From Salarchaeum sp. JOR-1 (lineage in GTDB: Archaea > Halobacteriota > Halobacteria > Halobacteriales > Halobacteriaceae), in the NCBI RefSeq assembly GCF_007833275.1, contig NZ_CP042241.1:1860001-1924000 (forward strand): a stretch of 64,000 nt of DNA. Reading direction: 5' to 3'. The notes under the pieces were generated by a model, which saw only the letters and a list, made by a program, of their open reading frames with translations, was not told the DNA's origin and searched no databases. Made by a program: the position numbers and the translations under genes. Shown piece after piece: positions 6,712 to 42,585 of the stretch. How positions within the stretch are numbered: the first letter of the stretch is position 1; each line of letters starts with the position of its first letter.

Positions 6712-6730
6712 GTCAGCGCGTTGCGCTGAC
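6712..6730. terminator. Hairpin with 3-nt loop downstream of the nucleoside phosphorylase gene
   Basis: GTCAGCGC and GCGCTGAC form an 8-bp perfect stem around a GTT loop. A CTTTTTC tract lies just before it (6699-6705), 19-25 nt after the phosphorylase stop. Archaeal termination uses T-tracts, so the tract may end the nucleoside operon and the hairpin may protect the 3' end. The stem has the same 3-nt-loop design as the array at 41.2-41.5 kb. Confidence 0.4.
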
Positions 6731-21323: not shown

Positions 21324-21330
21324 ACGCACG

Positions 21331-21383
21331 TTTTTCCGGTTCGGGTCACCTTCGGCGACCACTCACCGCAAAAACCCGCACTA
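21331..21383 (+). terminator. Terminator-like dispersed element, copy A (after phoU)
   Basis: Starts with TTTTT 8 nt after the phoU stop, continues through CTTCGGCGAC and ends with CCGCAAAAA...CACTA. Its ends (TTTTTCCGG and CCGCAAAAA) are nearly complementary. A closely similar 54-bp element lies 5 nt after the osmC-family gene at 34173-34226. The T-tract at its start would act as an archaeal terminator. Confidence 0.55.
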
Positions 21384-21393
21384 AAAACAGCCA

Positions 21394-21412
21394 CGAGCGC
21401 CGACGGCGCTCG
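21394..21412. repeat. Perfect GC-rich inverted repeat
   Basis: CGAGCGCCG and CGGCGCTCG are separated by a single A, giving a long palindrome directly between the terminator-like element and the 18-bp tandem repeats. Confidence 0.5.
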
Positions 21413-21428
21413 CGGTACTCGGCGTCCG

Positions 21429-21536
21429 CGACCGCCGCGACGCAAGCGACCGCCGCGACGCAAGCGACCGCCGCGACGCAAGCGACCGCCGCGACGCAAG
21501 CGACCGCCGCGACGCAAGCGACCGCCGCGACGCAAC
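21429..21536. repeat. 18-bp tandem repeat (minisatellite), six units
   Basis: Five perfect copies of CGACCGCCGCGACGCAAG start at 21429, 21447, 21465, 21483 and 21501; a sixth unit (21519-21536) differs only in its last base. Each unit contains CGACCGC and CGACGCAAG halves. Units are adjacent with no spacer, so this is not a CRISPR array. Copy number is likely variable between strains. Confidence 0.9.
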
Positions 21537-39948: not shown

Positions 39949-39971
39949 CGGTGGGGAAATCGGTTCAATCG

Positions 39972-41228
39972 ATGAGCGAGTCCAATCCGTTCGAGAACCT
40001 GCAGGAGCAGATAGAGGACGCCGCCGCCCACCTACCCGACGGCGTCGGCGACGACGTGATCGAACGCATCAAGAACCCCGAGCGCGTGCTGGAGATGAAC
40101 CTCACCGTCGACCTGGACGACGGCAGCATCGAGACATTCCGCGCCTACCGCTCGCAGTTCAACGGCGACCGCGGTCCCTACAAGGGCGGCATCCGCTACC
40201 ACCCCGGCGTCACTCGAGACGAGGTAAAAGCCCTCTCCGGGTGGATGGTGTACAAGTGCGCCGTCGTCGACATCCCCTACGGCGGCGGGAAGGGCGGCAT
40301 CGTCGTCGACCCCAGCGAGTACTCTACGAGCGAACTCGAACGCCTCACGCGGTCGTTCGCGAAGGAGCTCCGACCGTTCATCGGCGAGGACAAGGACATC
40401 CCCGCGCCCGACGTGAACACCGGCCAGCGCGAGATGAACTGGATCAAGGACACCTACGAGAAACTCGAAAACACCACCGAACCCGGCGTCATCACCGGGA
40501 AGTCCATCGAGAACGGCGGGAGCGAGGGGCGCGTCGAAGCCACCGGCCGCTCTACGATGCTCGCCGCGCGCGAGGTCTTCGACTACCTCGATAAAGACCT
40601 CGACGGCGCCACCGTCGCCGTCCAGGGATACGGGAACGCCGGCTGGATAGCCGCGAAACTCCTCGACGAACAGGGCGCGTCGGTCGTCGCCGTCAGCGAC
40701 TCCAGCGGCGGTATTCACGACCCCGAGGGTATCGACCCCGTCGCAGTCAAGGAGTTCAAGAACGACACCGGGAACGTCACCGGCTACAGCGACACCGAGG
40801 AACTCACCAACCGCGACCTCCTCACGCTCGACGTCGACCTCCTCGTGCCCGCCGCCCTCGAAAACGCAATCGACGAAGCCATCGCCCGCGACGTCCGGGC
40901 GGACGTCGTCGTCGAAGCCGCCAACGGCCCCCTCACCCCTGACGCCGACGACGTCCTCCAGAACTCCGACGTCGCCGTCGTCCCCGACATCCTCGCGAAC
41001 GCCGGCGGCGTGACGGTGAGCTACTTCGAATGGGTGCAGAACCGCCAGCGCTTCTCCTGGACGGAAGACCGCGTCAACGACGAGCTCGAACGCGTCATCA
41101 CCGACGCCTTCGACGAACTCACCCACGCCTACGAAACCCTCGACCTCCCCAGCCTCCGCATCGCCGCCTACGTCGTCGCCATCCAGCGCGTCGTGGACGC
41201 CTACACGGGCAACGGGAACTGGCCCTGA
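39972..41228 (+). CDS. Glutamate dehydrogenase
   Basis: A 418-aa hexameric-type Glu/Leu/Phe/Val dehydrogenase. The catalytic region includes [11 protein letters not shown] and [17 protein letters not shown] (substrate and catalytic Lys), and the Rossmann motif is [14 protein letters not shown]. Length and motifs match archaeal GDH. It interconverts glutamate and 2-oxoglutarate plus ammonia; in the methylaspartate cycle glutamate is the entry point, which fits the two preceding genes. It is followed by the hairpin array. Confidence 0.94.
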
Positions 41229-41607
41229 AAGTCGTCGCGAGACCGAAGGTCTCGCTGGATCCCGAAAATCTCCGATTTTCGAGGACCCTCAGCCCGACGC
41301 GGAGCGTCGGGCTGACCTGCCTGGCAGACGCTTCGCGTCTGCCTGCATCGTCCAGAATCTCTGATTCTGGAGACCTTTTCATGCCGGGACGAGTCGCGGA
41401 GCGACTCTCCCGGCGCAGGGAATCTCCGATTCTCGGTCGTCCCACCCTGGCCAGTCGTCGGAGCGGTGCTCCGACGTGCTCGCGTTCGCTTCGCTCACGC
41501 GAACGTCGGCGGACGCAAGCGGGCGACTGCGTCGCCCGCGGCATCGCGACGAACGAAACCGCACCGCCAACCGCGCCGCGACCGCCACCGTACCCCGGCC
41601 GTTTTGG
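41229..41607. other. 379-bp convergent intergenic region made almost wholly of hairpins
   Basis: No coding frame with normal composition. Between 41237 and 41539 ten inverted repeats follow one another with gaps of 1-42 bp; see the repeat entry. The remaining 70 bp before the aldo-keto reductase stop are GC-rich without clear structure. Flanking genes are convergent, so any promoter role is unlikely unless the region is itself transcribed as an RNA. Confidence 0.8.
41237..41539. repeat. Array of ten consecutive inverted repeats with mostly 3-nt loops
   Basis: Positions and loops: 41237-41255 (8-bp stem, GAA), 41263-41281 (8 bp, TCC), 41289-41315 (12 bp, GGA), 41323-41343 (9 bp, TTC), 41351-41371 (9 bp, TCT), 41383-41414 (14 bp with one bulged C, GGA), 41418-41434 (7 bp with one G-T, TCC), 41456-41476 (9 bp, GGT), 41483-41505 (7 bp, 9-nt loop), 41519-41539 (9 bp, TGC). 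Stem sequences differ from one another, so it is repetition of structure, not of sequence. Two such hairpins of the same design occur singly elsewhere (6712-6730, 12894-12912). Confidence 0.9.
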
Positions 41608-42585
41608 TTACTGGTGGCCGCTGACGGGCACGGGCTGGTAGGGTTCTTCGAGGTAGTCGATGTCGGAGTCGCTCAGTTTGATGTCGAGGGCTTCGACGGC
41701 GTCTTCAAGGTGTTCGACGCTGGTGGTTCCGACGATGGGGGCGTCCACCCAGTCCTTGTGGAGCACCCACGCGAGGCTGATCTGGGCCATCGTCACGCCC
41801 TTCTCTGCGGCGAGTTCTTCGACGCGTTCGTTGATTTCGAGGCCGCCGCCCTCCCGATAGGGGTGTTCGTACATGTGTTCTTCCGTCTCGCCACGCGTGG
41901 TGGCGTCGATGTCCTCGTGGGGGCGGGTGAGGAAGCCGCGCGCGAGCGGACTCCACGGCAGCACGCCGACGCCTTTCTTCTGCGTGTAGGGCAGCATCTC
42001 GCGCTCCTCCTCGCGGTACGCGAGGTTGTAGTGGTTCTGCATCGTCGCGAACCGTTCGAGGTCGAGCGCGTCGCTCGTGTGCAGCGCGTCGGCGAACTGG
42101 TGCGTCCACATCGAGGACGCGCCGACGTACCGCGCGTCCCCGCGGCGGACGGCGTCGTCGAGCGCGCGCAGCGTCTGCTCGATGGGCGTGTCGTAGTCCC
42201 AGCGGTGAATCTGGTAGAGGTCGACGGTATCCATGCCCAGTCGGTCGAGGGAGTTCGAGAGCTCCTGCTCGACGGCTTTCCGGCTGAGACCGCCCGCGTT
42301 CGGATTGTCGTCGTCCATCTGGAAGAATGCCTTCGTCGCGACGACCTGCGAATCCCGATCATACTCGGAGAGTACGTCCCCAAGCACGCGCTCGGACTCG
42401 CCGTTCGAGTACATGTTCGCGGTGTCGAAGAAGTTGATGCCGAGGTCGATTGCGCGCTCGATGATCTCCCGGGATTCCTCCTCGTCGAGCACCCACTCGC
42501 GCCACTCCGGGGTGCCGAAGCTCATGCAACCGAGGCAGATGCGGCTGACGTCCATGCCCGTGTCGCCGAGGGTCGTGTACTCCAT
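41608..42585 (-). CDS. Aldo/keto reductase
   Basis: A 325-aa TIM-barrel oxidoreductase. The catalytic tetrad is visible: Asp in INFFDTANMYSNG, Tyr in the same segment, Lys in VVATKAFF, and His in LYQIHRWDYDTP. NADPH-binding segments near the C-terminus (IVGTTSVEHLEDAVEALD) are present. Resembles the YajO/PdxI and Kv-beta-like group. Start at 42585 gives MEYTTLGDTGMDVSRICLG, the family N-terminus. Substrate unknown. Confidence 0.9.
   Translation of the reverse strand: MEYTTLGDTGMDVSRICLGCMSFGTPEWREWVLDEEESREIIERAIDLGINFFDTANMYSNGESERVLGDVLSEYDRDSQVVATKAFFQMDDDNPNAGGLSRKAVEQELSNSLDRLGMDTVDLYQIHRWDYDTPIEQTLRALDDAVRRGDARYVGASSMWTHQFADALHTSDALDLERFATMQNHYNLAYREEEREMLPYTQKKGVGVLPWSPLARGFLTRPHEDIDATTRGETEEHMYEHPYREGGGLEINERVEELAAEKGVTMAQISLAWVLHKDWVDAPIVGTTSVEHLEDAVEALDIKLSDSDIDYLEEPYQPVPVSGHQ

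Follow-up and report, generated by a model that had tools for sequence, protein, structure and literature searches.

The row of ten hairpins behind the glutamate dehydrogenase (GDH) gene of Salarchaeum sp. JOR-1 is very probably a composite, in which three copies of a small double-hairpin element (DHE) were inserted into an older gene-end element in the GDH 3' region. The array was analyzed within a window of 64,000 nucleotides, by which we mean the whole stretch of DNA examined and to whose first letter the coordinates refer. The GDH gene, a 425-amino-acid ORF for which 58 of 59 related genomes have a relative, occupies positions 39951 to 41228 of the plus strand (stop codon at 41226 to 41228), and an aldo/keto reductase ORF on the minus strand ends at 41608, leaving a convergent gap between the two. 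A comparison of GDH 3' ends across relatives found no conserved array behind this gene; the sister species G001 has an unrelated gap at the locus, and no strain pair differing at the GDH locus itself was found. A scan of the window with Rfam 15 returned a single tRNA and no match to the array above the gathering score.

An earlier note on this DNA had counted ten hairpins in 303 bp and judged chance an implausible source, and both statements were borne out. Eight of the hairpins are perfect and have 3-nt loops (41237 to 41255, 41263 to 41281, 41289 to 41315, 41323 to 41343, 41351 to 41371, 41391 to 41407, 41456 to 41476, and 41519 to 41539), a ninth with a 3-nt loop (41418 to 41434) carries one G·T pair, and the remaining one (41483 to 41505) has a 9-nt loop; the hairpin at 41391 to 41407 can be extended to 41383 to 41414 across a bulged C. 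Shuffles of the 64-kb window contained 9 to 18 perfect 3-nt-loop hairpins with arms of at least 7 per 64 kb, giving an expectation of ~0.06 for the array span against the 8 observed. The array is the densest such cluster in the 464 kb sampled out of the 2.52-Mb genome, the runner-up having 4, and its plus strand folds as RNA with a z score of -8.75 relative to shuffles. The gaps between hairpins are short, as had been described, and those separating hairpins 1 to 5 are also uniform, at exactly 7 nt each. The accompanying statement that the stems share no sequence did not hold: hairpins 2, 5, and 7 have AATC-TCY-GATT in common, C-G closes all nine 3-nt loops, and in seven of these nine loops one of the two strands reads GNA.

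Among hairpins with arms of at least 8 in the sampled intergenic DNA of this genome, 34 have 3-nt loops versus 2 with 2-nt and 5 with 4-nt loops, in a count that used rough gene calls of our own and included the hairpins of the array; C-G closes 29 of these 34 hairpins, and the loop is GNA or its complement in 17. Coding DNA showed no preference for 3-nt loops in the same count, and by the same loop counting some relatives, G010 among them, gave no evident intergenic excess. Elsewhere in the genome, apparently related triloop clusters at L148 (6642 to 6765) and L147 (14355 to 14438) comprise four and two perfect hairpins, respectively, with different stems and pairing kept, and an intergenic stretch of the window (21428 to 21535) contains six perfect 18-bp tandem repeats of GCGACCGCCGCGACGCAA.

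The older component, here called family A, is present in two parts, both on the plus strand. Its upstream part (41286 to 41317) consists of CCC, a hairpin with a 12-bp stem and a 3-nt loop (41289 to 41315, the third of the array), and CC, and other loci in this genome, in G001, and in the relative G006 have equal flanks around differing, fully paired stems. The general layout, TGAAAGCC(C) followed by stem, 3 nt, stem, CCCC, and a short T tract, recurs behind several genes in this genome and in G006, with 12-bp stems whose sequence varies among loci while their pairing stays complete. The downstream half (41440 to 41545) contains the hairpins at 41456 to 41476, 41483 to 41505, and 41519 to 41539 and can be aligned to the region 3' of GDH in G006; motifs judged by eye to resemble it are present at L020, at L021, and in Halarchaeum acidiphilum (L060). 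An uninterrupted family A element follows a different gene in this genome and, in a relative, follows GDH. The complete element at the 3' end of GDH would have read TGAAAG-CCC, the 12-bp triloop hairpin, CCCC, TTTTCATG, and TCCCACCCTGGCC, followed by further hairpins, and for this older element only, a role as a bidirectional terminator is possible. A second type of gene-end palindrome, GTTTTT...CCGCAAAAA around a triloop hairpin and often followed by another hairpin, was seen at 21324 to 21404 of the window, L147 (14295 to 14438), L017, and L155, and looks like a bidirectional terminator.

The loops of family A hairpins differ between loci that share a stem. Locus C2:902162 of this genome has the stem of array hairpin 3 with the loop GAA instead of GGA, and behind sucD the loop is TCC in one and GGA, its exact inversion, in the other of the two sister species G001 (L205) and Salarchaeum sp. 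JOR-1 (G000, L238), with identical stems. The sucD difference is consistent with palindrome-mediated inversion, a process that would explain why loops are seen as GNA or its complement.

Hairpins 1 and 2, 4 and 5, and 6 and 7 of the array make up three DHE units of two hairpins each, all on the plus strand: M1 (41232 to 41285, 54 nt, hairpins at 41237 to 41255 and 41263 to 41281), M2 (41318 to 41373, 56 nt, hairpins at 41323 to 41343 and 41351 to 41371), and M3 (41384 to 41439, 56 nt, boundaries ±1 nt, hairpins at 41383 to 41414 and 41418 to 41434). Removing M2 in silico restores CC|CCTTTTCATG of family A, and removing M3 restores its TTTTCATG|TCCCACCCTGGCC; with all three units taken out, the flanks join as TGAAAG|CCC, CC|CCTTTT, and CATG|TCCC, with zero bases lost or doubled. 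The array without M1 to M3 matches the GDH 3' end of G006 at 206 of 246 positions, gene end included, and is nearly identical to locus C2:902162 over TGAAAGCCC, the hairpin, and CCCCTTTTCATGTCCCACCC. Along 61 nt, M1 is also 95% identical to a DHE that G001 carries behind sucD. A covariance model, R1, built from nine plasmid copies together with M1 (ten sequences), scored M1 at 72.7 bits, a value that is partly by construction; M2 and M3, which lie outside the training set, scored 23.7 bits (E value of 2e-6 in the window) and a weak 15.1 bits. Given these weak R1 scores, the assignment of M2 and M3 comes mainly from the restored older sequence and from the presence of two hairpins within 56 nt. 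BLAST searches with the whole array gave short matches only, which pointed to the plasmid copies, and a search of plasmids with M2 alone gave no relevant match. Matches in Enterococcus and Rhizobium were set aside, and the single Enterococcus locus inspected resembles an ordinary terminator hairpin. The suggestion that the tract consists of transposed or copied single hairpins was right in kind, except that the mobile unit is a hairpin pair of 54 to 56 nt. Such pairs account for six of the ten hairpins, the others belonging to the older gene-end element, and R1 has no match at 6712 or 12894, where single hairpins of this design had been pointed out.

Across genomes, DHEs are 53 to 56 nt long and read from left to right as a tag (consensus TCGTY), a hairpin of ~8 bp with a 3-nt loop, a spacer of 6 to 7 nt (consensus TGATCA), a second hairpin, and a right end of RRCGA, RACCA, AGGA, or AGCA. 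In many copies the short ends form an inverted pair (GTCGTY/RACGAC); M1 and others end in AGGA or AGCA. Filled and empty versions of the same site were recovered at several loci. Behind sucD, G001 has 54 nt between the stop codon and the CCC of a family A 12-bp hairpin that are precisely missing in the genome studied here. The tnpA gene of Haloferax larsenii carries a 54-nt in-frame insertion with flanks identical to uninterrupted tnpA at 98 of 106 and 101 of 106 positions, and in a tnpA copy of Natrinema versiforme this same insertion contains a stop codon; in tnpB of Natribaculum breve the insertion is 53 nt (flanks, 100/107 and 103/107). The end palindrome of an IS605-type element likewise exists with and without 54 nt (flanks, 69/73), arranged as CCTCGGGG|DHE|CTTGACCCCGAGG, most cleanly at L206 and L209 and less clearly in others, with many copies elsewhere. 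No target duplication was found at the sucD, tnpA, tnpB, or IS605-type-end pairs. A filled and an empty site alone give no direction of change, and it is the lone filled copies within genes having several uninterrupted relatives that favor insertion. DHEs often lie within or adjoining tnpA and tnpB. Those at L200 (1501 to 1556), L210, L216, and L284 coincide with the 3' ends of ORFs resembling tnpB, the usual place of the sequence for TnpB guide RNAs, and the L200 ORF terminates within the element.

R1 found matches in 53 of the 59 related genomes; among genomes sampled across the phylum, it matched 40 of 43 Halobacteriales versus 6 of 204 others, and some of these 6 have the two-triloop layout of DHEs by inspection. 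Per-genome match counts list both strands and overstate loci, such that about 90 matches in each of G035 and G036 represent roughly 45 double-hairpin loci per genome. Outside Halobacteriales, double triloop hairpins with the DHE layout were observed at L276 to L281 (G099, G083, G092, and G197), some apparently in or beside tnpB. A search of the open-access full-text literature, which omits many subscription papers, found no description of DHEs. The DHE is a small palindromic mobile element that is widespread in haloarchaea and has been missed by annotation.

The pairing of DHE stems was assessed in 62 distinct copies, where 992 stem pairs comprise 969 Watson-Crick pairs, 9 G·T pairs, and 14 unpaired positions; the copies were collected with a structure model, so these counts lean toward pairing, and they leave out MAFFT alignments of 9-bp stems and of family A, which were misregistered. 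Loops are 3 nt long in 120 of 124 cases, 119 of the 120 being closed by C-G and 89 (74%) reading GNA or TNC, compared to 12.5% for random letters. The earlier note had named a lack of compensatory changes as grounds for abandoning its idea, and such changes proved abundant: two-sided stem changes numbered 386, compared to 117 for shuffled sequence and no more than 17 after sliding of the partners, in a count where some rows represent both strands of one locus. Because G·T pairs are rare and loops occur as GNA or its complement, these data suggest that stem pairing is maintained at the level of DNA rather than RNA.

These observations bear on whether the array might instead be one functional RNA, or a bidirectional terminator block serving GDH and the aldo/keto reductase gene, with hairpins under RNA selection. 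Its position in a convergent gap, the folding score, and the CCTTTTCATG tract are all in keeping with such a role, as are reports that one tested hairpin in Haloferax volcanii terminates transcription (59%; PMC7237163) and that hairpin clusters in bacteria have been proposed as terminators (PMC8355165). We nevertheless consider this very unlikely, and the proposal of one structured noncoding RNA is likewise unsupported, in that the array has no Rfam match, six of the ten hairpins belong to units missing from the aligned element elsewhere and similar units occur inside tnpA and tnpB. G·T pairs, at only 9 of 992, are also below what we would expect of a fold under RNA selection, and the alternation of loops between GNA and its complement favors neither strand. 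It is still more improbable that the hairpins arose in place through template switching that perfects imperfect inverted repeats. Perfect arms, few G·T pairs, and the exact inversion of the sucD loop (TCC versus GGA) between identical stems agree with that process, but it leaves unexplained both the discrete 53- to 56-nt units, whose ends and spacer are related throughout the order, and the clean filled and empty sites, which count against it; template switching may instead serve in the upkeep of perfect stems after DHE insertion.

Under the composite reading, M1 would have landed 3 nt before the old hairpin, M2 2 nt after it, and M3 just past the T tract, each insertion being precise and without target duplication, and any effect on GDH or its neighbor, e.g., on termination, would be secondary. 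With a confidence somewhat short of even, we propose that a Y1 (HUH) transposase of the IS200/IS605 type, acting in trans, moves DHEs in the form of folded single-stranded DNA; precise, duplication-free insertion, hairpins near the ends, and frequent placement in or near tnpA and tnpB are all reminiscent of IS200/IS605 elements. In those elements, single-stranded DNA bearing hairpins at its ends is the substrate of the Y1 transposase (PMC3119063 and PMC6006769), and the IS200 type is the sole Y1 TnpA subclass reported in archaea (PMC6006769). This genome has one match to a Y1 TnpA gene, whose connection to DHEs is hypothetical. Recognition would be largely by shape, from a C-GNA-G triloop and an outer tag. 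An origin of DHEs as terminal-only remnants of IS605-type transposons, i.e., palindrome-associated transposable elements (PATEs) that have lost their core, would be compatible with three insertions at GDH. PATEs carry palindromes close to their ends and do not duplicate the target, and their terminal-only forms of 52 bp seem mobile (PMC3119063); the frequent placement of DHEs in or beside tnpA and tnpB also fits. We regard this origin as doubtful, with perhaps one chance in a few, because the DHE is extra sequence in tnpA, tnpB, and the IS605-type end, where uninterrupted versions exist, and because an inverted arrangement (TCGTY/RRCGA) is common at its ends, M1 and others with AGGA or AGCA aside, where PATEs by definition lack one.

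Insertions beside hairpins were seen for M1, for M2, behind sucD, and in the IS605-type end. A tentative generalization, which we think possible but would not yet bet on, is that DHEs form a family set by DNA shape, with a pair of C-(GNA)-G triloop hairpins within ~54 nt and interchangeable stems, which moves as folded single-stranded DNA and lands preferentially at other hairpins in haloarchaea and some related archaea. On the composite reading, a row of odd hairpins becomes a readable series of insertion events, and the persistence of pairing and triloop while stems change offers a natural test of a transposase that chooses its substrate by DNA fold. A note of caution also follows, as intergenic DNA of haloarchaeal genomes may owe its dense hairpins and strong folding scores to mobile DNA and not to structured RNA.

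Several known elements resemble DHEs. Rickettsia palindromic elements form hairpins and lie in frame inside genes, as one DHE does in Haloferax larsenii tnpA, but they are bacterial and unlike DHEs in sequence and structure; they are named in PMC3733652. Double-hairpin elements of Allomyces mitochondria (Paquin 2000), as cited in PMC2800124, are also two adjacent hairpins that are mobile without target duplication, and that account sets them apart as elements of fungal mitochondria for which an RNA-mediated route is suggested. SMR-A of Haloquadratum walsbyi is, like the DHE, haloarchaeal, noncoding, and free of target duplication (for DHEs at sucD, tnpA, tnpB, and the IS605-type end), and it occurs in near-terminal palindromes of IS605-type elements, one such end also holding a DHE (PMC3119063). 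According to its description, SMR-A is ~110 bp long, its inverted terminal repeats are prominent, and its copies are highly identical (PMC3119063), whereas DHE insertions are 53 to 56 nt with two triloop hairpins and divergent stems. PATEs share with DHEs near-terminal palindromes, no target duplication, a noncoding size, and a link to IS605-type elements, and PATE versions as short as 52 bp are known (PMC3119063). Palindromes are present near DHE ends; the terminal-only HqIRS46 keeps one palindrome (PMC3119063), whereas a DHE has two and can itself be added to the end of an IS605-type element. Like DHEs, REPINs and CGTC-tagged REP dimers pair small hairpins with 8- to 9-bp stems and a CGTC-like tag at gene ends and sometimes inside genes (PMC3116915 and PMC3733652). 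CGTC-REP loops are 4 to 5 nt and dimer spacers mostly 20 to 100 bp (PMC3116915 and PMC3733652); DHEs have a similar tag, loops of 3 nt in 120 of 124 cases, and spacers of 6 to 7 nt. We therefore file the DHE as a variant among small palindromic mobile elements, set apart from SMR-A by its length and from CGTC-REPs by the length of its loops.
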